A program made the position numbers and the translations under genes. 64,000 nt of DNA from Haloprofundus halophilus (GTDB taxonomy: Archaea > Halobacteriota > Halobacteria > Halobacteriales > Haloferacaceae): contig NZ_QQRR01000001.1 in the NCBI RefSeq assembly GCF_003439925.1, forward strand, positions 806,001 to 870,000, written 5' to 3'. Below the pieces are notes generated by a model, which worked only from the letters and a program-made list of their open reading frames with translations, was not told the DNA's origin and made no database searches. This document shows, one piece after another, positions 3,984 to 33,535 of this stretch; positions within the stretch are counted from its first letter, which is position 1, and each line of letters opens with the position of its first letter.

Positions 3984-4121
3984 AGCGACGGCGGCGAGGA
4001 AGAGCCAGTGACGGACGGCGGTGTCGTGAACGACGTGAACGACACTTCGTCGCAAGCAGAGCGCCGTGACGGCCGTGTCGTCGGCGGCGAGTCTGCGGAC
4101 GAACGCGACTCCGACGAATAA
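3984..4121 (+). other. In-frame open extension after the coxA stop
   Basis: After the TGA at 3981-3983 the coxA frame continues for 45 codons to TAA at 4119-4121 and encodes an acidic, haloarchaeal-type sequence. Within it DGGVVNDVNDTSSQAE resembles the CoxA C-terminal DGGVESEANDASSQTE, so the two are an imperfect direct duplication (about 3940-3980 and 4014-4055). A GTG at 4008 could start a 37 aa ORF, but a former CoxA tail cut off by a recent nonsense change is at least as likely. Confidence 0.6.
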
Positions 4122-4132
4122 CGCGGCCTCCC

Positions 4133-4144
4133 GCTTTCGTTTTT
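4133..4144 (+). terminator. Candidate T-tract terminator for coxA
   Basis: CTTTCGTTTTT lies just after the extended coxA frame. Archaeal intrinsic termination uses plus-strand T-rich tracts without needing a hairpin. This is the first T5 run after coxA. Confidence 0.35.
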
Positions 4145-4246
4145 CACCCGCCGAGCTGACGCTTCGCTCGGTCGACGGTCGATTCGACGCGTCGGTGCGC
4201 ACCGAACACCGACGTGCCTTTGTCGTTCGCCCCCCGAGCGATAGGT

Positions 4247-4330
4247 ATGTCCGACAAAGACCTCCTCGGCATCATCCTCGGGGCCGTCGCGCTCATGATG
4301 TTTGCGACCGGCATCATCCTCGTTATCTGA
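4247..4330 (+). CDS. 27-residue single-helix membrane microprotein in the cox cluster
   Basis: MSDKDLLGIILGAVALMM begins a 27 aa product made of a short charged N-terminus and one membrane helix that ends at the C-terminus (ATGIILVI). The third codon position is strongly G/C like real genes here, and the frame is bounded by an ATG and a TGA. It lies between coxA and another cox-cluster membrane protein on the same strand. Very small single-helix subunits are common in haem-copper oxidases, so an accessory oxidase subunit is a reasonable guess. No TATA box is obvious directly upstream. Confidence 0.7.
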   Translation: MSDKDLLGIILGAVALMMFATGIILVI

Positions 4331-4392
4331 CCCCGGAAGCGGGCGCAGGCGGCGTCGAAAGCGCTAATCGACTCGCGTCCGAAGCCCCGGTC

Positions 4393-4659
4393 GTGAGCAC
4401 GATACGACTCGAAGGTCCGCGGTTCGTCCTCATCCTCTACGTACTGCTCGTCGCGATCTCGGGGCTCGCCGGGTTTCTGACGGCGACGTTCGTCTCCGGA
4501 CTCCGGTCGCCGAGATTCCTCTTTCTCATCCCGTTTCCACCGACGCAACTCGGCTTCGCCGCCTACGGCGCGCTGACCGTCGCGCTGGTGCTCGGCGTCC
4601 CGCTGCTGCTCGTCGCGTACGTCTCGAGGAACATCGACGACGACGCCGCCCAGAACTGA
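4393..4659 (+). CDS. Cox-cluster membrane protein, 88 aa
   Basis: The product has two clear membrane helices, FVLILYVLLVAISGLAGFLT and a second around YGALTVALVLGVPLLLVAYV, joined by a loop containing RSPRFLFLIPFPPTQLG, and a short polar tail. The GTG at 4393 is chosen because GCTAATCG at about 4360-4367 is a suitable TATA element and the protein then starts just before the first helix. Longer forms would extend into unrelated sequence. Size and place match the small haloarchaeal cox cluster proteins (possibly DUF7520, from memory). Function unknown. Confidence 0.82.
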   Translation: MSTIRLEGPRFVLILYVLLVAISGLAGFLTATFVSGLRSPRFLFLIPFPPTQLGFAAYGALTVALVLGVPLLLVAYVSRNIDDDAAQN

Positions 4660-4686
4660 TAAGCACGCACCGCCGTATCTCTCGGT

Positions 4687-5088
4687 ATGTACCACGTGCT
4701 CGTTGGTGTCGACGACGACGTAGAGCGTGCCCGAACGTGCGCACGTGAAGTTGCCAATCTCCCCGGGAGCGCCGGCGAGATGACGGTCACGCTCCTGCAC
4801 GCGTTCGACGAGGACCCGGGCGACGCGTCCGCCACCGACGTCGAGGCGGTTCGCGCCGCCGCCGACTATCTCGACGACAATGGCGTCGCGTACGAACTAC
4901 TCGAATCCGGCGGCGACCCCGCACAGTCGATTCTCGACGCCGCCAATCGGGAGAACGCCGACCTCATCGTCGTCGCCGGGCGGAAGCGTTCGCCGGCCGG
5001 AAAAGCCATTTTCGGCAGCGTCAGCCAGTCGGTCATCCTGAGTTCGAACCGACCGGTGCTGGTCGCCGGCGTCGTCGGCGAGACGTAG
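4687..5088 (+). CDS. Universal stress protein family (UspA), 133 aa
   Basis: This is a single Usp domain. It opens with the typical strand MYHVLVGVDDD and ends with SSNRPVLVAGV. The nucleotide-binding loop reads AGRKRSPAGKAIFGSVSQ. In ATP-binding Usp proteins the pattern is G-2x-G-9x-G-S/T. Here the second glycine position is arginine, so ATP binding is doubtful although the terminal GS is kept. The gene begins 27 nt after the previous cox-cluster gene with a TGATAAG element directly upstream, so it probably has its own leaderless promoter. Partner and function are unknown. Confidence 0.9.
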   Translation: MYHVLVGVDDDVERARTCAREVANLPGSAGEMTVTLLHAFDEDPGDASATDVEAVRAAADYLDDNGVAYELLESGGDPAQSILDAANRENADLIVVAGRKRSPAGKAIFGSVSQSVILSSNRPVLVAGVVGET

Positions 5089-5097
5089 CGCCGCAGT

Positions 5098-5766
5098 TCA
5101 GAAAACGTCCTCGACGACGGCCGCGAACGCCGACGGCGAGACGTATCCCTCGCGCGTCTCGACGTGGTCGCCGCCGGCGAAGAAGACGACCGCCGGTGCG
5201 GTGTTGACCGCGTGTCGAAGCCGAAAGCCCGAGGCCGACGCGCCGTCGACACCGCCGACGGCGACTCGCTCCGGTACCGCGTCGAGCAGCGCCGGGAGGT
5301 CGGCTTCGAGCCGTTCGCACGGGTCGCAGTCGTGCTTCCAGACGGTCACGACGGCGTCGGGATGGTCGTCGAGAAACGCCTCGTAGGAGTCGTCGAGCGG
5401 GGCGACCGCCCGGGGAACCGGCGACGGCGGCGACACCTCGCAGACCAGATGCGCCATCACGGCTTTCGTCTCCGCCGTCGGCGACGTGTCCAGAAACGAC
5501 TCCACGGCGAGATAGGCCGCCAACTGCGCGCGCGTCACGCCGTTCGCGTCTATCTCTCTCGCCGCCGTCTCGGGAGCGAGGTCGAACGCCTCGGCGACCG
5601 CGTCGACGAACGTCTCGCGGTCGGCAGTCCGATACTGTCGACTGTACTCCGCTCGCGTCGATTCGAACGCCCCGGTCGTCGTGAGCGACCCGTCGTCGCC
5701 CTCGCGGACGACGCCGCCGTCGGTGAGACGGGCCAGCACATCGTCGATGTCCGGCTCGCCCGTCAT
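5098..5766 (-). CDS. Thioredoxin-like protein with helical N-terminal domain, 222 aa
   Basis: Residues from about 130 form a thioredoxin fold: VVTVWKHDCDPCERLEADLP holds a CDPC redox motif, followed by VGGVDG and the strand NTAPAVVFFAGG, where the cis-proline segment is TAP. The first 120 residues are acidic and helical, beginning MTGEPDIDDVLARLTDGG, and look like a small winged-helix or DNA-binding-like domain, not identified further. No signal peptide is present, so it should be cytoplasmic. The ATG at 5764-5766 is the only plausible start. It is convergent with the UspA gene, with 9 nt between the stops. Confidence 0.85.
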   Translation of the reverse strand: MTGEPDIDDVLARLTDGGVVREGDDGSLTTTGAFESTRAEYSRQYRTADRETFVDAVAEAFDLAPETAAREIDANGVTRAQLAAYLAVESFLDTSPTAETKAVMAHLVCEVSPPSPVPRAVAPLDDSYEAFLDDHPDAVVTVWKHDCDPCERLEADLPALLDAVPERVAVGGVDGASASGFRLRHAVNTAPAVVFFAGGDHVETREGYVSPSAFAAVVEDVF

Positions 5767-6000
5767 CGTCGTCTCTCCGGAGTGCGCCGCTGGCGTCCGT
5801 CTCGGTCGGTGCGGTTCATCGTCTCGATGTACGGGCCGAGACGGTTGATAGCCGTTGCGCCTTCGACGGCCGCCCGGCGACCGGCCGAGGCGTCCGACCG
5901 ACGCGAGCGGTCGGAGAACCGACAAACCGGCCGCCGGGACGCGCTTCTGTGTCTGCGAGTGGCCGGGACTGTTTTGTGGTGGTACGGCGTAGCACAGCGT

Positions 6001-6759
6001 ATGGACCTTCGAGACGCCGAACCCGCAGACGCGGAAGGGATTCGAACCGTCGCACGCGAGTCGCTTCTGGCTTCGTACAGTCCCGAACTCTCCGAGGACG
6101 TCATCGACGACGCCGTCGGGAGGTGGTACGACGACGACGAGGTCGGGGCGAATCTCGACGACCCGCAGGCGGTGTGGACCGTCGCCGTCGACGGCGACGA
6201 CGTGGTCGCCTTCGTCCAGAGCTACCTCGTCGAGGCCGACGGGACGGTCGGCCAGATCGATTGGCTCCACGTCGACCCCGACTCGCGCGGGAAGGGCCTC
6301 GGAAAGCAGCTGCTCAAGCGCGTCGAGACGGAGCTGATGGACCGCGGCGCGTCGCGCCTCGAAGGGAAAGTGTTGACCGTCAACGAGGGCGGTGCGAAGT
6401 TCTACGAGAACGCCGGCTACGACGCCGGCGAGACCCGGGCGGTGAAAATCGGCGACGAGGAGTTCACCGAACGCGCCTTCCGCAAGACCGCCTCCGAGTC
6501 CGCCGAGGAGTTCGTCCCGGTCGAAGAGCGAACGGACTCGGACGGACAGACGCTGTTCGTCGCCTACGACGAGAGCCAGCGCGCCCGGAAAGCGCCGTTC
6601 TACGTCACCTACACCGACGAGGGCAGAGAGGAACGCTACGGCTACTTCTGCGGCAACTGCGAGAGTTTCGAGACCGCGATGGACTCGATGGAACGCATCC
6701 AGTGCAACGAGTGCGGCAACCAGAGCAAATCCGCCCGCTGGGACTCGGCGTACCTGTAG
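6001..6759 (+). CDS. GNAT N-acetyltransferase with C-terminal zinc-binding domain, 252 aa
   Basis: Residues 1-150 are a GNAT domain. IDWLHVDPDSRGKGLGKQLL carries the acetyl-CoA binding R-G-x-G-x-G loop, and GAKFYENAGYDAGETRAVKI is the usual last part. Residues about 170-252 form a separate domain with two CxxC pairs (CGNC and CNEC), a likely zinc site; I recall this haloarchaeal domain as DUF5816. The combination suggests an acetyltransferase acting on a protein or small molecule, substrate unknown. The ATG at 6001 begins directly with MDLRDAEPADAEGI, a standard GNAT start. Confidence 0.9.
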   Translation: MDLRDAEPADAEGIRTVARESLLASYSPELSEDVIDDAVGRWYDDDEVGANLDDPQAVWTVAVDGDDVVAFVQSYLVEADGTVGQIDWLHVDPDSRGKGLGKQLLKRVETELMDRGASRLEGKVLTVNEGGAKFYENAGYDAGETRAVKIGDEEFTERAFRKTASESAEEFVPVEERTDSDGQTLFVAYDESQRARKAPFYVTYTDEGREERYGYFCGNCESFETAMDSMERIQCNECGNQSKSARWDSAYL

Positions 6760-26287: not shown

Positions 26288-28045
26288 ATGCCTGCGGACT
26301 TCAACTGGGCCATCGGCGGAGAGGCTGGCGATGGCATCGACTCCACGGGGAAGATTTTCGCCCAGGCGCTCTCACGGGCTGGCCGGCACGTGTTCACCTC
26401 GAAGGACTTCGCTTCGCGTATCCGCGGCGGATACACGGCGTACAAGGTCCGGACTTCGGTCGACCAAGTGCAGAGTGTCGTGGACCGACTCGACGTACTC
26501 ATCGCGCTCACACCGCGAACCATCGAAGAGAACCTCGACGAACTGCACGAGGGGAGCGTCATCGTCTACGACGGCGAGCGCACCACGATGCAGGGCGTCG
26601 AGATTCCGGAGGGAATGGTCGGGCTGGACGTTCCCCTCCAGAGCATCGCCGAGGAGAAAGGCGGCGCAATCATGCGCAACGTCGTCGCGCTCGGCGCGGC
26701 GTGCGCCGTCGCCGACTTCCCCATCGAACATCTCGACAGTTCGCTGGAGAAGCGTTTCGGCGGTAAGGGACAGGCCATCGTCGACAACAACCGCGAGGCC
26801 GCCCGCGCCGGACGCGACTACGTCCACGAGAACTTCGACCACGAGTTCGACTACGACCTTGAGACCACCGACAACGACTACGTTCTCCTCAACGGCGACG
26901 AGGCCATCGGTATGGGTGCCATCGCCGCCGGTTGCCGCTTCTACGCCGGCTACCCCATCACGCCCGCGACCGACGTGATGGAGTATCTGACGGGTCGCAT
27001 CGAGCAGTACGGCGGTCACGTCGTCCAAGCGGAGGACGAACTCGCCGCTATCAACCTCGCGCTCGGCGGCGCACGCGCCGGCGCCCGCGCGATGACCGCG
27101 ACGTCCGGTCCGGGTATCGACCTGATGACCGAGACGTTCGGCCTCATCGCGACGAGCGAGACGCCGCTGGTCATCGTCGACGTGATGCGCTCGGGTCCCT
27201 CGACGGGGATGCCAACCAAACAGGAGCAGGGCGACCTGAACCAGATGGTGTACGGCGGTCACGGCGAGATTCCGCGCTTCACGCTCGCGCCGACCACCGT
27301 CGCCGAGTGTTTCCACAAGACCGTCGAGGCGTTCAACCTCGCCGAGAAGTACCAAACTCCGGTGTACCTCGCCGCCGACCTCGCGATGGCGGTCACCGAG
27401 CAGACGTTTGCGCCCGAGGAGTTCGACATGGACGCCGTCGAGATCGACCGCGGCAAGGTCGTCGACGACGACACCATCGGCGAGTGGCAGAACGAGAAAG
27501 GGCAGTTCAGACCCCACGCGCTCACCGAGGACGGCGTCAGTCCGCGCTCGTTCCCCGGGACGACCGGCGGCGCGCACATGTCGACGGGCCTCGAACACGA
27601 CGAACTCGGTCGCCGGACCGAGGACACCGACATGCGCGTCGAGCAGGTCGACAAGCGCAACCGGAAGGTCGAGACGGCACAGGAACGCGAACCGTGGGAG
27701 TACCGCGAGTTCGGCGATACAGATTCTGGAAACCTCGTCATCTCGTGGGGTTCCAACGAGGGCGCGATGGTCGAGGCCATCGAGTTCCTCGAAGAGGACG
27801 GCGTCGACGTCCGCTTCATCTCGGTGCCGTACATCTTCCCGCGTCCGGACCTCTCGGAGGTCATAAAGGACGCCGACGACGTCATCGTCGTCGAGTGTAA
27901 CAACACCGGGCAGTTCGCGGACATCCTCGAACACGACGCGCTTACCCGCGTCAAGCGCGTGAACAAGTACAACGGCGTCCGCTTCAAAGCCGACGAACTG
28001 GCCGAAGACATCAAAGAGACGCTCTCACAGGAGATTACCGCATGA
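26288..28045 (+). CDS. korA: 2-oxoacid:ferredoxin oxidoreductase, alpha (fused gamma-alpha) subunit, 585 aa
   Basis: Residues 1-190 are the gamma domain (WAIGGEAGDGIDSTGKIFAQ, ASRIRGGYTAYKVRTS) and residues about 200 on the alpha domain, with FYAGYPITPATDVMEYL, the YPITP motif, and QAEDELAAINLALGGARAGA. The complex with KorB oxidatively decarboxylates a 2-oxoacid (2-oxoglutarate or pyruvate) to the acyl-CoA and reduces ferredoxin. Haloarchaea have two such enzymes and I cannot tell the substrate with certainty; the symbol is by similarity to the 2-oxoglutarate type. CTTTTGATTC 25-34 nt upstream is a likely TATA element. The stop overlaps korB by 4 nt. Confidence 0.93.
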   Translation: MPADFNWAIGGEAGDGIDSTGKIFAQALSRAGRHVFTSKDFASRIRGGYTAYKVRTSVDQVQSVVDRLDVLIALTPRTIEENLDELHEGSVIVYDGERTTMQGVEIPEGMVGLDVPLQSIAEEKGGAIMRNVVALGAACAVADFPIEHLDSSLEKRFGGKGQAIVDNNREAARAGRDYVHENFDHEFDYDLETTDNDYVLLNGDEAIGMGAIAAGCRFYAGYPITPATDVMEYLTGRIEQYGGHVVQAEDELAAINLALGGARAGARAMTATSGPGIDLMTETFGLIATSETPLVIVDVMRSGPSTGMPTKQEQGDLNQMVYGGHGEIPRFTLAPTTVAECFHKTVEAFNLAEKYQTPVYLAADLAMAVTEQTFAPEEFDMDAVEIDRGKVVDDDTIGEWQNEKGQFRPHALTEDGVSPRSFPGTTGGAHMSTGLEHDELGRRTEDTDMRVEQVDKRNRKVETAQEREPWEYREFGDTDSGNLVISWGSNEGAMVEAIEFLEEDGVDVRFISVPYIFPRPDLSEVIKDADDVIVVECNNTGQFADILEHDALTRVKRVNKYNGVRFKADELAEDIKETLSQEITA

Positions 28046-28908
28046 GCTCAGACGTTCGATTCACCGACTTCAAGTCCGACAAACAGCCGACGTGGTGCCC
28101 CGGGTGCGGCGACTTTGGCACGATGAACGGCATGATGAAGGCGCTGGCGAACACGGGTAACGACCCCGACAACACGTTCGTCGTCGCCGGCATCGGCTGT
28201 TCCGGTAAGATAGGCACCTACATGCACAGCTACGCGATGCACGGCGTCCACGGCCGCGCGCTCCCGGTCGGCGCGGGCGTGAAGATGGCCAACCCCGACC
28301 TCGAAGTGATGGTCGCGGGCGGTGACGGCGACGGCTACTCCATCGGCGCGGGCCATTTCGTCCACGCCGTCCGTCGGAACGTCGACATGACGTACGTCGT
28401 CATGGACAACCGCATCTACGGCCTCACCAAAGGGCAGGCCTCGCCGACCTCGCGCGAAGACTTCGAGACGTCCACGACGCCGGAAGGCCCGAAACAGCCG
28501 CCGGTCAACCCGATGGCGCTGGCGCTGGCGGCGGGCGCGACGTTCATCGCGCAGTCCTTCTCCTCGGACGCGATGCGACACGCCGAAATCGTCCAGGAGG
28601 CCATCGAGCACGACGGCTTCGGCTTCGTCAACGTGTTCAGCCCGTGCGTGACGTTCAACGACGTCGACACGTACGACTACTTCCGCGACAACCTCGTGGA
28701 CCTCGGCGACGAGGACGACCACGACCGCCACGACTACGACGCGGCCAAGGACAGGATTCTCGACGCCTCCAAGGAGTACCAGGGCGTCATCTACCAGAAC
28801 GAGAACTCGGTGCCGTACGAGGAGCAGCACGGCCTCACCGAGAACATGGCCGACATCCCGGACGGCGCGCCCGACGACGCGATGGACCTGGTGCGAGAGT
28901 TCTACTAA
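28042..28908 (+). CDS. korB: 2-oxoacid:ferredoxin oxidoreductase, beta subunit, 288 aa
   Basis: This is the thiamine-diphosphate and [4Fe-4S] subunit. Cluster cysteines appear in TWCPGCGDFG, VAGIGCSGKIG and VNVFSPCVTFN. The TPP motif is VAGGDGDGYSIGAGHFVHAV followed by the MDNRIYGLTKGQ segment. The length is normal for the haloarchaeal two-subunit enzyme, which lacks a separate ferredoxin-like delta subunit. Its start ATG overlaps the korA stop (ATGA), so translation is coupled. A T5 tract and a strong hairpin follow 6-40 nt after the stop. Confidence 0.95.
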   Translation: MSSDVRFTDFKSDKQPTWCPGCGDFGTMNGMMKALANTGNDPDNTFVVAGIGCSGKIGTYMHSYAMHGVHGRALPVGAGVKMANPDLEVMVAGGDGDGYSIGAGHFVHAVRRNVDMTYVVMDNRIYGLTKGQASPTSREDFETSTTPEGPKQPPVNPMALALAAGATFIAQSFSSDAMRHAEIVQEAIEHDGFGFVNVFSPCVTFNDVDTYDYFRDNLVDLGDEDDHDRHDYDAAKDRILDASKEYQGVIYQNENSVPYEEQHGLTENMADIPDGAPDDAMDLVREFY

Positions 28909-28910
28909 CC

Positions 28911-29011
28911 CACCTTTTTCCGCCTCGGGGTCGCGCTTTGCGCGACCACTCGGCGCAAAAATCTGGACCAAAAAGGGCCGCTCACTCGGCCTTCGGCCTC
29001 GTTCGCGGTAC
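28911..29011 (+). repeat. Structured 3' element, copy A (downstream of korB)
   Basis: In order: ACCTTTTT (28912-28919), a hairpin GGTCGCGC-TTT-GCGCGACC (28929-28947), GCAAAAATCTGG, AAAAAGG, GGCCGCTCACTCGGCC and TCGTTCGCGGTAC. Copy B at 31808-31898 has the same order with different stem bases. The T5 run is probably the transcription terminator of korAB. The rest may be a dispersed 3' repeat. Confidence 0.65.
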
Positions 29012-29258
29012 AACTGCTTGTCCGTCAACCCCACCGTACAGCGATCGTTACTGCTTCAGTAGCCGCTACTACTTCAGCGACCGCGCCGCGACGAGGGTTT
29101 ATCAGCGAAGGCGGGACCAGACCCCCCGTGCGTTGACGAGTCGTCGCGGGGTCGGTCGAGGCGGGTGTACGGCGCGCCGCTCCGCGAGTGGGAGAATCGC
29201 TGTGCCGTCTGTTCGCTACAAATCTTCGACACAGCCGTGCGTCCACGCGTCGAAGTCG
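29012..29258. other. Intergenic, no gene seen
   Basis: There is no convincing coding frame. A short imperfect local repetition (TTACTGCTTCAGTAGCC then CTACTACTTCAGCGACC, about 29046-29083) is present. The neighbouring minus-strand gene ends at 29259. Confidence 0.4.
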
Positions 29259-29612
29259 CTACTTCGTCCGCCAAATCCGTCGTCCCGTCCGGAACAGCAG
29301 CAGAGCACCAGCTAACGACATGGCGGCCGCAGGGAGGTACACCCACTGAACACCACAGCCGAACCCACCGTAACCGAGCGGGTCGTCGAAGGCCCCTGTC
29401 AGAAGTAGCCCGAAGAGGAACGCTGCGAGCCCCAGTAGCGACGTGACAATGGACAGTACGAGCGAAAGGGACGATTGCCCCAGCCACGGACCGCCTCGGT
29501 TTGCGAGTCCCCAGACGAGAGCGAAACCGAGCAAGAGAACGCCGAACAGCGTCTGCGGGATGCCGCTGCCCGGCGTACAGAGTACAGTCTCGGAGATGAA
29601 AACGGAGACCAT
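29259..29612 (-). CDS. Small membrane protein, 117 aa, function unknown
   Basis: Three or four membrane helices: GIPQTLFGVLLLGFALVWGL, SLSLVLSIVTSLLGLAAFLF and VYLPAAAMSLAGALLLFRTG, then a basic C-terminus (RRIWRTK) predicted to lie inside the cell. The hydrophobic pattern on this strand is coherent, but codon bias is weak. It lies 43 nt downstream of the lipoprotein gene on the same strand, so the two may be co-transcribed. The start at 29612 could instead be an internal codon. I do not recognise the family. Confidence 0.6.
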   Translation of the reverse strand: MVSVFISETVLCTPGSGIPQTLFGVLLLGFALVWGLANRGGPWLGQSSLSLVLSIVTSLLGLAAFLFGLLLTGAFDDPLGYGGFGCGVQWVYLPAAAMSLAGALLLFRTGRRIWRTK

Positions 29613-29655
29613 GAGTCCCGCACACTGCGGGAACGTGTAGTCCTTCCGTCGTGTC

Positions 29656-30306
29656 TTAGCCTTCGTGTTCGATGCGCTCGAACAGCGACAGCACCGTCTC
29701 CCGTTCGTCGAGGTCGGCGGGGTGCATCGCCAGCGCGACTACGACGTCGTCGCCGTGGCTGACGGTTGCGACGTGGAACCGAATCGACACCGACTCGTTT
29801 ACCTGCGCAGTCGACTCCTCGACCGAAACGTTCTCGGCACTCACGTTACCCTCGTAGGTGACGACGGTCGCCCGTTCGCCGAGAACCGTCCGTTCGGTCT
29901 CGCCGACGCGGCGGAGGTCGCCGACCGAGTCGCCGGTGACTTCGTTCGAGAGGCCGAGCAGTCGTTCGACGAGTTCGTCGTTCGGCTCTCCGGCAAGCGG
30001 GTTGACGGAGACGCCGGCGACGTCGGGGTTCGGCGTCGAGAGCAAGACGACGGACGCGCCACCGTCGGAGCGTGCGTACGACGAGAGCCAGCCGACGAGC
30101 GTGACGTTCGTTCCGCCCCCGGCGACGTCGACTCGGCGGTCGACGACGACAGACCGACTCTCGCCGGGTTCGTAACTCGCGTCCGCCAGCGTCGAGTTCG
30201 GTATCGACGCCGGGTTCGACTCCAGCGTCAACGCGCTCCCGCCGACGCAACCCGAGAGCGCCACGAGGAGCGCGACCGCCGGCACGAGAAACGATGCGCG
30301 TTTCAT
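29656..30306 (-). CDS. Lipoprotein of the DUF6517 type, 216 aa
   Basis: MKRASFLVPAVALLVALSGC is a Sec-like lipoprotein signal with lipobox LSGC (Cys20) and no twin arginine. The mature part has regular beta strands and acidic surface segments, including DRRVDVAGGGTNVTLVGWLS and NPLAGEPNDELVERLLGLSN, as in the haloarchaeal secreted family I recall as DUF6517. It should sit on the outer face of the membrane. Function unknown. The start at 30306 is chosen because it begins the signal peptide; 16 upstream residues are R/G-rich. Confidence 0.85.
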   Translation of the reverse strand: MKRASFLVPAVALLVALSGCVGGSALTLESNPASIPNSTLADASYEPGESRSVVVDRRVDVAGGGTNVTLVGWLSSYARSDGGASVVLLSTPNPDVAGVSVNPLAGEPNDELVERLLGLSNEVTGDSVGDLRRVGETERTVLGERATVVTYEGNVSAENVSVEESTAQVNESVSIRFHVATVSHGDDVVVALAMHPADLDERETVLSLFERIEHEG

Positions 30307-30432
30307 ACTCCCCGGAGAGCGTGTGCGACCAAATCTCTTACCCCGCTCGAACACCCTCGGTCGTCCCAGACCCGTTACCGTGCGTGAACGGATGCACGCG
30401 TTTTTTATGAACTGGCAGGGAACTACCTACTT

Positions 30433-31803
30433 ATGCCAGCGGATACGTACGACATCGTCGTAGTGGGGGGAGGCACCGCCGGAGCCTTCGCCGCCGCGAC
30501 GACGGCCTCTGCGGGACTCGACACAGTCATCATCGAGCGGAAATCACCGGAGGAGGCGGGTCACATCGCCTGCGGCGACGCCATCAAGGGGAAGAGCTCG
30601 TTTCCCGACGTCATCGACCTCGACTACCTGAAAGAGGAGTCGTTTACCAACCGGAACATCCGGCGCGCGGTGTTCGAGAGTCCGGCGGGCGAGACGCTCG
30701 ATATCCCGCTATCGGAACCGGGCGCGGTGCTCGACCGCAAACGCTACGGCGAGATAATCCTCGAAGAGGCCGAGCGAACCGGCGCAGAGATCCATTACGA
30801 CACGGTCGTCCAGGACGTGACGCAGGCCGACGACGGGACCGTCACCGGTGTTCGCGCCAAGCGAAGAGGCGAGGCTATCGACTACGAAGCCGAGGTGACC
30901 ATCGACGCGGCGGGGGCGCTCTCGCTGCTGCAGGACAAAACCGACTTCTCGGGAACGACGTTCGACACGAACGTCAACTACTCGCAGTTCTGCTCGGCGT
31001 ACCGCGAGGTCGTCGACGTGAGAGAGCCCGTCGAGTGGGACGACGCCATCGTCTTCAAACCGACCGAGGAACTGGGATATCTCTGGTACTTCCCGCGCAC
31101 GTCGACCGAGATCAACGTCGGGCTCGGGTTCCAGATGAACAAAGAACCGATGAAACTCGTCGAGGCGCTCAAGAAGGACCTCCGCGGCCGCGCCGAGTTC
31201 GCGGGCGCGACGGTCAAGGACAAACTCGGTGCGGCGCTGCCGACCCGCCGACCGTACGACTCGGCGGTCGCCGACGGCTTCGTCGCCGTCGGCGACGCCG
31301 CGGGTCACGTCAACCCGACCACCGGCGGCGGTATCCCCGGCGCGGCAAAGTCCGCCCATCGCGCGGCCAACCGCGCCATCGCAGCTATCGGCGACGGCGA
31401 CGTGAGCGAGGAGGCGCTGTGGATGTACAACCACGACGTGATGACTGATTTCGGCAAGCGCTTCGCGGCTATCGACCTCTACAACATCTGGGGTAGCGTC
31501 CACGACGTGGACGAACTCGTCGGCATCGTCACCTCCGTCCCCGGTCAGCAACTGGCCGACGCCGTCGGCCGCGGGGGCACCGACTCGATGCATCTCGGCC
31601 TGAAACTGAAGACGCTCGTGCGGACGTTCGGACACTGGGACACGCTGTTCGAGTTGGCTCGCGTCCGTAGCAAAGCGAACGAGTTGAAGGCGCACTACGA
31701 CCGGTATCCGGCGCGTCCCGGCGGTTTCGAGACCTGGCGCGAGGTGCGCGACGACATCATGGACGACGTGTACGCTATCACCGGCGCGGACCCGAAGTAC
31801 TGA
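30433..31803 (+). CDS. Geranylgeranyl reductase family FAD protein, 456 aa
   Basis: This flavoprotein saturates isoprenoid chains of archaeal membrane lipids or related prenyl compounds. The N-terminus TYDIVVVGGGTAGAFAAATT is an FAD-binding GxGxxG loop, and VADGFVAVGDAAGHVNPTTG followed by GGIPGAA is the second FAD motif of the family. The IACGDAIKGKSSF region near residue 46 is the GGR-type C-x-D segment. The substrate (digeranylgeranylglycerophospholipid or a quinone side chain) cannot be read from sequence. A TTTTTTATGA element about 24-33 nt upstream serves as TATA box. It is divergent from the DUF6517 gene and followed by a structured 3' element. Confidence 0.93.
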   Translation: MPADTYDIVVVGGGTAGAFAAATTASAGLDTVIIERKSPEEAGHIACGDAIKGKSSFPDVIDLDYLKEESFTNRNIRRAVFESPAGETLDIPLSEPGAVLDRKRYGEIILEEAERTGAEIHYDTVVQDVTQADDGTVTGVRAKRRGEAIDYEAEVTIDAAGALSLLQDKTDFSGTTFDTNVNYSQFCSAYREVVDVREPVEWDDAIVFKPTEELGYLWYFPRTSTEINVGLGFQMNKEPMKLVEALKKDLRGRAEFAGATVKDKLGAALPTRRPYDSAVADGFVAVGDAAGHVNPTTGGGIPGAAKSAHRAANRAIAAIGDGDVSEEALWMYNHDVMTDFGKRFAAIDLYNIWGSVHDVDELVGIVTSVPGQQLADAVGRGGTDSMHLGLKLKTLVRTFGHWDTLFELARVRSKANELKAHYDRYPARPGGFETWREVRDDIMDDVYAITGADPKY

Positions 31804-31807
31804 AACC

Positions 31808-31898
31808 GACCTTTTTACTGCGGGGGGTGCGCGAAGCGCACCCCCACTTGCAAAAACGTCGATGAAAAAGGCCGCTCGCTCGGCCTCGCTCGCGGTAC
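31808..31898 (+). repeat. Structured 3' element, copy B (downstream of the geranylgeranyl reductase)
   Basis: It has the same order as copy A at 28911-29011: ACCTTTTT (31809-31816), a 10 bp hairpin GGGGGTGCGC-GAA-GCGCACCCCC (31823-31845), GCAAAAACGTCG, AAAAAGG, GGCCGCTCGCTCGGCC and TCGCTCGCGGTAC. The stem sequence differs from copy A but pairing is kept, pointing to a conserved RNA or DNA structure. The T5 run 8 nt after the stop is a likely terminator. Confidence 0.68.
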
Positions 31899-31935: not shown

Positions 31936-32502
31936 TCACTCTTTGTTCTCGGCCAGCCACCTGTACGCCGGGTCGTCCGCAGCGAGTCGCCGCCGAATCG
32001 CGTCCGTGTCGCCCGGTGTGATTCCGTCGAAGAACTCGCGGTCCTCCTCGTGGAGGCGACGAATCTCCGACTCGGTGAAATCGTCGTACTCCGGTTCGGG
32101 GTCGACGGCCCGACTGGTATCTATCTCGTAGGCGTCGCCGAAACACCGCTCGAAGATGTACCTCGCTCGCCGGAGGTGCATCCGCGAACTGACGACGGAC
32201 ACCGTCTCCGTATCGGGCGCGTGCTCGTCGACCAACAGTCGAGCGAAGTAGCCGTTCCCGCGGGTGTCGTAGGCGTGGTCTTCGAGTAGAACGCGCTCGG
32301 GGGCAACCCCTCGCGAGACGGCGTAGTCGGCCATGACCTCACACTCCGCGCGCGGCACATCCGGGTTCGTCGCCGCACCGGTGACGAGCAGATACCGCCC
32401 GTCAGTCGCTTGCAATGCGTCGATGCCCGCGTCGACCCGTTTCCGGAGGTGTGGATGAATAGCGTTCGATCGAAGCCGGTCGCCGAGGACGACGATGACC
32501 AT
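31936..32502 (-). CDS. DUF218 (YdcF-like) protein, 188 aa
   Basis: The family pattern is complete: VIVVLGDRLRSNAIHPHLRK, RYLLVTGAATN, AECEVMADYAVSRGVAPERV, LLEDHAYDTRGNGYFA and VVSSRMHLRRARYIFER. YdcF/SanA-like proteins bind nucleotide-like cofactors and act in envelope or vancomycin-type sensitivity in bacteria; the archaeal role is unknown. It has no signal peptide. The ATG at 32502 gives a Rossmann-like first strand at once; the frame is open further upstream but adds unrelated residues. It is convergent with the geranylgeranyl reductase. Confidence 0.87.
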   Translation of the reverse strand: MVIVVLGDRLRSNAIHPHLRKRVDAGIDALQATDGRYLLVTGAATNPDVPRAECEVMADYAVSRGVAPERVLLEDHAYDTRGNGYFARLLVDEHAPDTETVSVVSSRMHLRRARYIFERCFGDAYEIDTSRAVDPEPEYDDFTESEIRRLHEEDREFFDGITPGDTDAIRRRLAADDPAYRWLAENKE

Positions 32503-32567
32503 GACACCCGTTTCTGCGCAGAAGACAAATACAACTGTGTCGGCTCCGCCGCCCGGCCCCGCTCCCC

Positions 32568-32617
32568 GGCCGGAAAGGGACCGCTCTCTGGCCGGTAAGG
32601 GATCGCTCTCTGGCCGG
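32568..32617. repeat. 22 bp tandem repeat, 2.3 copies
   Basis: Units 32568-32589 and 32590-32611 differ at two positions (GGCCGGAAAGGGACCG against GGCCGGTAAGGGATCG, each followed by CTCTCT), and a third GGCCGG follows at 32612-32617. It lies in the promoter region between two divergent genes. Confidence 0.9.
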
Positions 32618-32701
32618 TGACCCTGAACGCACCGCGAAACAGTCGGCAGCATGTACGACGGCCGCAACCGCTTTTGGCGTCTAGACCTTTCGTTTCGATA
32701 C

Positions 32702-33535
32702 ATGTCTAACGGACAGGAACTCACGAGCGAGGACGTGCCACTCGCGAACGGAATGCCGATGCTCGGTCTCGGCACCTGGGAGAACACAGACCCCGACGAC
32801 TGTCGAAACGCCGTCCAGACGGCGCTGGAGATGGGCTATCGCCACATCGACACCGCTCAGGCGTACGGCAACGAGTCCGAGGTCGGCGACGGAATCGCCG
32901 CCGCCGACGTTCCGCGAGAGGATATCTTCCTCGCGACGAAGGTGTGGATAGACAACCTCGCCTACGACGACGTCGTCGAGACGACGAAACAGAGCCTCGA
33001 CGACCTCAGCGTCGACTACGTCGACCTGCTGTACATCCACTGGCCCGCCCGCGAGTACGACCCCGAGGAGACGTTCGAGGCGTTCAACGAACTGTACGAC
33101 GAAGGCCTCGTAAAGCGTATCGGCGTGAGCAACTTCGAACCGGAACACGTCGACGAGGCCATCGAGCACTCCGACGCGCCCATCTTCGCCAACCAGGTCG
33201 AACTCCACCCGCTGCTCCCGCAGGAGGAGCTCCGCGAGCACTGCGCCGAGCGCGATATCGAACTCGTCGCGTACTCGCCGCTGGCGCGCGGGGCGATCGC
33301 CGACGACGAAACTATCTCCGCCATCGCCGACAAACACGACGCGAGTCCGTTCCAGGTGAGCCTCGCCTGGATTCGAGAGAAGGGCGTCACCGCCATCCCG
33401 AAGGCGACGAGCGAGGAACACATCCGCGACAACTGGGAGTCGTTGGCGGTCGACCTCGACGACGAGGATATCGACGATATCGACGCCATCGACCGCACCG
33501 ACCGGCGCGTCGACCCGAGCTTCGCCCCCTGGTAG
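32702..33535 (+). CDS. Aldo/keto reductase (AKR5-like), 277 aa
   Basis: This is an NAD(P)H-dependent carbonyl reductase in a TIM barrel. The catalytic tetrad is visible: Asp and Tyr in YRHIDTAQAYGNESEVG, Lys in IFLATKVW and His in VDLLYIHWPARE. The cofactor end is KGVTAIPKATSEEHIRDNWE, in place of the common P-K-S/T motif. The length is normal for the 2,5-diketogluconate reductase/AKR5 group. The ATG at 32702 gives MSNGQELTSEDVPLANGM, a standard start. Substrate unknown; probably detoxification of aldehydes or ketones, possibly including methylglyoxal-type compounds, which is inference. Confidence 0.93.
   Translation: MSNGQELTSEDVPLANGMPMLGLGTWENTDPDDCRNAVQTALEMGYRHIDTAQAYGNESEVGDGIAAADVPREDIFLATKVWIDNLAYDDVVETTKQSLDDLSVDYVDLLYIHWPAREYDPEETFEAFNELYDEGLVKRIGVSNFEPEHVDEAIEHSDAPIFANQVELHPLLPQEELREHCAERDIELVAYSPLARGAIADDETISAIADKHDASPFQVSLAWIREKGVTAIPKATSEEHIRDNWESLAVDLDDEDIDDIDAIDRTDRRVDPSFAPW

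Follow-up and report, generated by a model that had tools for sequence, protein, structure and literature searches.

A 64,000-nt stretch of the Haloprofundus halophilus genome (contig NZ_QQRR01000001.1, positions 806,001 to 870,000, hereafter the window) carries, directly behind two genes on its forward strand, two copies of a palindromic element of the same design. With moderate confidence, we assign these copies to a family of portable, two-faced T-tract terminator palindromes found across the haloarchaea, whose units have been moved as DNA modules. We arrived at this reading because there are T-runs on both strands of the element, because T-runs near stop codons terminate haloarchaeal genes, and because the element's slot behind one gene, porB, is kept while the hairpin within it differs. 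Each copy offers a short T-tract in both directions. On one strand this is CCACC-T4-6, just past the upstream stop codon or tRNA; on the other it is TTTTGGTCCAGNTTTT, in many cases preceded by a second hairpin. The haloarchaeal RNA polymerase, together with an archaeal termination factor, probably halts at both tracts, which would close the upstream gene and insulate a convergent neighbor. The palindrome around the tracts, in turn, would be a feature of the DNA, with whole units being replaced by other family members and new copies being gained at gene 3′ ends; such wholesale replacement would keep the pairing intact while the stem sequence changes. The observations that we bring to this reading concern the anatomy and location of the copies, slots that are conserved while their hairpins differ, presence and absence of the element between species, duplicated gene ends, and arrays.

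Anatomy and distribution of the palindrome family

Copy 1 begins one base past the stop codon of a 2-oxoacid:ferredoxin oxidoreductase beta-subunit gene, and copy 2 begins three bases past that of a gene for a geranylgeranyl-reductase-like flavin adenine dinucleotide (FAD) oxidoreductase. A first-pass annotation of the window, made from its letters alone, had described a common order of blocks after two unrelated genes, and both points stand: the two upstream genes are unrelated, and all of the shared blocks are present on reading the sequence. In copy 1 these run CCACC (28910-28914), T5, the stem GGTCGCGC/GCGCGACC, A5, TCTGGACC, a further A5 (28970-28974), CCGCTCACTCGGCCTTCGGCCTCGTTCGCGG, and GTAC ending at 29011, while copy 2 runs CGACC (31807-31811), T5, the stem GGGGGTGCGC/GCGCACCCCC, A5 (31852-31856), A5 (31865-31869), and GGCCGCTCGCTCGGCCTCGCTCGCGGTAC ending at 31898. 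The hairpins in that annotation are likewise real, but it overlooked that pairing in both copies extends outward, with T5 lying opposite A5 and a 3-base outer foot (CCA/TGG in copy 1, CGA/TCG in copy 2) completing arms of 26–27 nt; we refer to this whole palindrome as H1. Compared with dinucleotide shuffles, the two copies folded with z-scores of −3.5 and −3.3 on the plus strand and −3.6 and −5.2 on the minus strand. An Rfam scan of the 64-kb window at gathering score returned a tRNA as its sole match and neither copy, and a Pfam search of the small open reading frame (ORF) facing copy 1 returned no family.

Reading the copies side by side gave the frame CCACC-T(4-6)-variable palindrome-A(4-6)-NC-TGG-ACC-AAAA, which in the window copies is followed by a second hairpin. 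We built a covariance model from five clear, alignable copies of the source genome (3.47 Mb), and in that genome it returned 50 rows at E ≤ 1 and 24 rows at E < 1e-3, four of the latter being the opposite strand of a listed copy and five being the model's own members. Since 150 of 2318 first-look candidates were scored in this search, the copy count is a lower bound. The genome-wide check proposed in the first-pass annotation therefore yielded many copies, well beyond the two in the window, with a likeness that is not confined to low-complexity sequence, and given these matches, the resemblance between the two window copies is not due to chance. The element does not behave as an exact repeat: strict second-hairpin patterns had one to three matches genome-wide, and what is conserved is the H1 frame.

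The exact pattern CCACCTTTTN(20-50)TGGACCAAAA was found in 56 of the 146 genomes of the order, including at 15 places in the source genome, while a reversed control pattern had no match in the same 146 genomes. Across the phylum, a similar pattern occurred in 32 of 392 genomes, all 32 falling within the 81 genomes of the same order (counted manually from the table) and none among the 311 others. Copies were also present in 12 haloarchaeal plasmid records, with no annotated feature beneath them. Among viral contigs, a loose pattern was found in 39 stretches, none of which had an A-tract ahead of TGGACC, and there is therefore no evidence for a viral carrier. A scan of genome contigs provided at least 80 loci; among the 80 used, 25 were non-haloarchaeal by title and nearly all of those were without the frame; these 25 were excluded from the statistics on location, feet and tracts, unpaired bases, wobble, and REP and attC tags given below. 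A full frame was seen after an apparent tRNA end in a contig of a Woesearchaeota metagenome-assembled genome (L076, 3990-4032), which points either to a broader range or to misbinning.

Location at gene ends and differing hairpins in shared slots

Using a gene caller based on a crude acidic-ORF rule, we found a sense stop codon 1–8 nt upstream of the foot in 27 of 142 haloarchaeal copies, compared with 12 of 1400 random positions in the same loci, and a tRNA end directly upstream of the foot in a further class of 7/142. The minus-strand stop of an opposing gene lay within 130 nt to the right in 64 of the 142 copies, compared with 107 of the 1400 random positions, and seven copies fell into both the sense-stop and opposing-stop classes. 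These counts, along with the many copies in the genome and the order, support the earlier suggestion of a dispersed, terminator-like repeat at gene ends. A run of at least four Ts is present shortly past the gene end, as in an archaeal T-tract terminator, and elements occur in both directions relative to genes. At one locus (L005, 1255-1440), a second copy of a tRNA-Arg 3′ part lies ~110 bp downstream of the first, with an element immediately after it, a possible trace of integration at a tRNA.

Particular genes in Haloprofundus keep a slot for the element. Of the congeners compared, G146 is Haloprofundus marisrubri SB9, identical over 1500 of 1500 bases to the record of that strain. Behind porB, an element lies within a few nucleotides of the stop codon in all five genomes, where by inspection we distinguished four hairpin types, with T-runs of 4, 5 or 6 and with feet that read CCA/TGG, GCA/TGC (twice), GAACC/GGTTC, and, in one case, contain a mismatch and an extra hairpin inserted at the foot. 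The slot behind the reductase gene is intact in four of the five genomes and a remnant in the other; among the 30 reductase loci compared, paralogues and other families included, the element was present in seven, in addition to the Haloprofundus remnant (by inspection). A third slot (class A) is occupied in 5/5 genomes, one copy being degenerate, and holds two hairpin types. Genome G102 carries similar units at several loci, with a likeness that by inspection starts at the foot and spans ~165 bp.

Two further arrangements were seen. At L297 in G102, a pair of inverted elements ~420 bp from each other has the same H1 but differing downstream hairpins, which suggests that modules can be exchanged separately. 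At L308 (genome G147, behind porB), L316, L022, L028 and L033, a second small hairpin module sits at the element foot and splits TCTG from TGGACC; it looks like a palindrome-targeting repeat, comparable with the SMR-A repeats reported to target PATEs.

Duplicated gene ends, arrays and the origin of the copies

Inverted copies are often flanked by direct repeats of the adjoining gene's 3′ end. At a threshold score of 16 or more, such repeats were found in 61 of 154 flank pairs and at 7 of 538 control positions. The 154 pairs contain a number of loci more than once, as well as one or more unrelated contigs (L122 among them); de-duplication to 145 unique copies left 50 near repeats and 4 far ones, with non-haloarchaeal loci still included. 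In gene sense, the layout is the gene end and stop codon, an optional hairpin, TTTTGGTCCAGNTTTT-palindrome-AAAAGGTGG, about four unrelated bases, the second copy of the gene end, and then other sequence. At 39 junctions, the identity of the gene-end copies was 0.31–0.49 over the first four bases outside the foot and at least 0.92 from the eighth. Behind a radical-SAM gene, the source genome has an element and a 29-bp duplication, and one congener has neither but shares the same downstream bases; in other relatives the site is filled or has decayed. Behind an M29 peptidase gene, the five Haloprofundus species have 2, 1, 1, 1 and 0 units, two of the single units being degenerate, and the junction bases are identical in the four occupied species. 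The filled and empty slots within the genus, the differing hairpins per slot, the similar hairpins across loci and the duplicated gene ends lend indirect support to the earlier proposal that the repeat is mobile.

Many of these features could also be produced by non-autonomous mobile DNA that targets the 3′ ends of genes and generates long target duplications (~25–60 bp), in which case termination would be incidental and copies would survive only where coding ends were preserved. The excess of flanking gene-end repeats, the fairly sharp boundary at the 39 junctions (identity at or near chance over the first 4 nt), the filled and empty radical-SAM sites, and the units that resemble each other from the foot onward at several G102 loci all fit such an element. 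We nevertheless consider it rather unlikely, as the repeat length varies widely, unlike that left by a classical transposase, many copies (class A) have no duplication, and junctions common to the genus suggest that the insertions are old and that jumps are infrequent; in addition, we saw no terminal inverted repeat, and no search was made for a transposase, integrase or other partner enzyme. A more far-reaching scheme, and one that we regard as unlikely, is that haloarchaea have an undescribed exchange system, guided by DNA structure, that fits interchangeable hairpins into positions at the 3′ ends of genes. It would preserve the coding end by copying the terminal tens of bases of the gene across to the other flank of the unit, and it could build arrays, occasionally with cargo such as toxin-antitoxin genes between units.

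Arrays were found in more than one genome. Behind a paralogue of the M29 peptidase gene in the source genome, there are 3.3 copies of a 103-bp unit of gene end plus palindrome in tandem. In Halobellus salinus (L133, ~4000-6200), an array of several units lies behind a large methyltransferase-like gene, and two hicA toxin genes (Pfam HicA_toxin) lie between units, each after a small ORF (DUF7387 in one), in a cassette-like arrangement.

Within H1, some positions pair without exception and others mostly stay unpaired. Among 169 distinct copies, the middle foot pair, which was left free in the pattern, was complementary in all 169 (C-G 154, G-C 11, A-T 4), although the C-G share is inflated and alternative feet are undercounted because many loci were fetched with CCA and TGG fixed. 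The T-run and A-run were equal in length in 159 of the copies, while opposed bases inside the helix were kept mismatched (CC against TC or GC) in 148 and the unpaired tail ACC was retained in 151. The stems themselves are hypervariable, and compared with mononucleotide shuffles, the inner hairpin had a median z-score of −2.2, with 52% of copies under −2.

A replication or repair error driven by the palindrome, whereby a polymerase stalls at the hairpin and switches template, could duplicate gene ends, build tandem arrays and correct palindromes without a dedicated mobility mechanism. The tandem arrays (including the two copies behind the M29 peptidase gene) are consistent with this, as are second copies at L132 and L097 that are truncated in or near the hairpin. 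So too is the agreement of gene-end copies within a locus, which in five chosen gene families differed at 0–5 of 24 bases, mostly 0–1, while the same end mostly differed more between species; the repeats must therefore be homogenized or recent. However, template switching leaves unexplained why the same frame occurs at unrelated genes in many genera, and correction would erase the unpaired parts conserved in 148 and 151 of the 169 copies. We consider it improbable.

The stem pairs themselves speak to whether the helix is maintained at the level of RNA. From the 111 of 169 copies with a scorable stem, we obtained 950 pairs, of which 941 were Watson-Crick, 1 was G.T, 4 were A.C and 4 were others; 22 tRNAs from the same loci and the window contained 26 G.U in 463 pairs (5.6%), a comparison that is indicative only, as the stem finder and the tRNA brackets were built differently. 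Covariation is present in H1 while wobble on either strand is nearly nil, and this scarcity of wobble suggests a DNA-level process. It suggests that the apparent covariation reflects DNA-level swapping or palindrome correction rather than compensatory RNA evolution, and on these counts, we set RNA-level covariation aside as the main interpretation. The first-pass annotation had taken the perfect pairing of differing stems as a sign of selection on structure, a conclusion that is not secure given that whole hairpins differ between species. A structured RNA in the 3′ untranslated region, acting as a stability or regulatory element with its helix under selection, would account for the stable predicted folds, complementary feet and matched tract lengths, but is very improbable in view of the near absence of wobble, the occurrence of both orientations relative to genes, a T-tract right after the stop codon that would end the transcript ahead of the hairpin, and the lack of any Rfam family in the window other than a tRNA.

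Several points also weigh against the portable two-faced terminator that we favor, as do the limits on the foot and wobble counts stated above. Termination at the T-tracts of the element is probable on the basis of sequence, and it is from sequence, too, that we infer the exchange of units at the DNA level. A T-tract alone requires neither an A-tract of equal length nor an outer foot, and the palindrome must therefore have a further reason. The exact frame had no match in 90 of the 146 genomes of the order, and the element is therefore not an essential terminator. Lastly, under the crude gene caller, 51 of the 142 copies had no recognized adjoining gene end. If the reading holds, a large archaeal group bears movable terminators that stay behind particular genes even as one hairpin is exchanged for another. 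It would also add a class of archaeal dispersed element associated with duplicated gene ends, caution that "covariation" in terminator stems need not be a product of RNA selection, and provide a direct way to test how transcription is ended and insulated in haloarchaea.

Comparison with known elements and features of the window

The nearest known elements are T-stretch terminators, PATE/SMR repeats, REPs and attC sites, and none of these fits in full. In Haloferax volcanii, a T5C terminator gave 95% termination in an in vivo reporter, and T-stretches mark intergenic ends (Berkemer et al., 2020; PMC7237163). The present element shares with these the short intergenic T-run soon past the stop codon; the Haloferax signal, in contrast, is a T-run and a following C, and although hairpins upstream of some 3′ ends are mentioned, the accessible part of that report does not mention a palindrome around the T-run, a conserved foot, an opposite-strand T-run or a dispersed family (PMC7237163). 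The PATEs and SMRs of Haloquadratum walsbyi are, like the present family, haloarchaeal, non-coding, ~50–110 bp in length, palindromic and dispersed, but SMR copies are described as commonly >95% identical, with inverted terminal repeats and no target duplication (PMC3119063). The hypervariable stems and duplicated gene ends seen here, with no such terminal repeats, set our copies apart from SMRs. Bacterial REPs and BIMEs are also extragenic palindromes that occur in either orientation, in some cases in tandem groups, and have proposed roles in termination (PMC3733652; see also PMC2817692), and REPs bear a GTAG or CGTC tag (PMC3733652). The present family is mostly without either: within 6 nt upstream of the foot, we found GTAG in 0/170 copies and CGTC in 5/170, which does not support membership. 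Nor do the copies qualify as MITEs, as repeat lengths vary and the ends CCACC and GCGG are, by inspection, not mutual inverted repeats.

Integron attC sites are imperfect palindromes that follow stop codons and have variable stems and conserved feet. The present copies resemble them in all of these respects, and one array (L133) has hicA genes between copies; however, consensus R-box pairs were found at both feet in 0/170 copies, and we rejected this identity, no search for an integrase having been made. Bacterial bidirectional intrinsic terminators have an A-run before the stem and a T-run after it, such that one hairpin region serves two convergent genes. On the sense strand of H1 the order is the opposite, with the T-run before the stem and the A-run after, and since T5 precedes the hairpin, H1 is not a bacterial-style hairpin-then-U terminator on that strand. 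The second hairpin of copy 1 was listed as terminator-like on the minus strand, and only this read has the bacterial hairpin-then-T form. Literature searches, one of them with three motif strings, showed no account of the palindrome family among the matches listed, with subscription literature outside their scope and novelty accordingly unproven.

The positions of both copies and of the adjoining genes are collected in Table 1.

Table 1. Features of the two palindromic copies and their neighboring genes, in window coordinates.
Feature	Position	Strand	Basis
Stop codon TAA of 2-oxoacid:ferredoxin oxidoreductase beta-subunit gene (gene 28042-28908)	28906..28908	+	Sequence; Pfam TPP_enzyme_C and PFO_beta_C
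Copy 1, palindrome H1: foot CCA 28910-28912, T5 28915-28919, variable stem-loop, A5 28957-28961, foot TGG 28964-28966	28910..28966	+	
Copy 1, unpaired conserved tail ACC-AAAAA (minus strand: T5 then GGTCCAG)	28967..28974	+	
Copy 1, second hairpin (CCGC...GCGG) plus GTAC; minus strand: hairpin arm then T5	28975..29011	+	
Stop codon TGA of geranylgeranyl-reductase-like gene (gene 30433-31803)	31801..31803	+	
Copy 2, palindrome H1: foot CGA 31807-31809, T5 31812-31816, stem GGGGGTGCGC, A5 31852-31856, foot TCG 31859-31861	31807..31861	+	
Copy 2, second A5, second hairpin GGCCGCTCGCTCGGCCTCGCTCGCGG, GTAC	31865..31898	+	
Convergent DUF218 gene facing copy 2 (gene start provisional)	31936..32787	-	

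The DUF218 gene that converges on copy 2 would be served by the minus-strand terminator of that copy.

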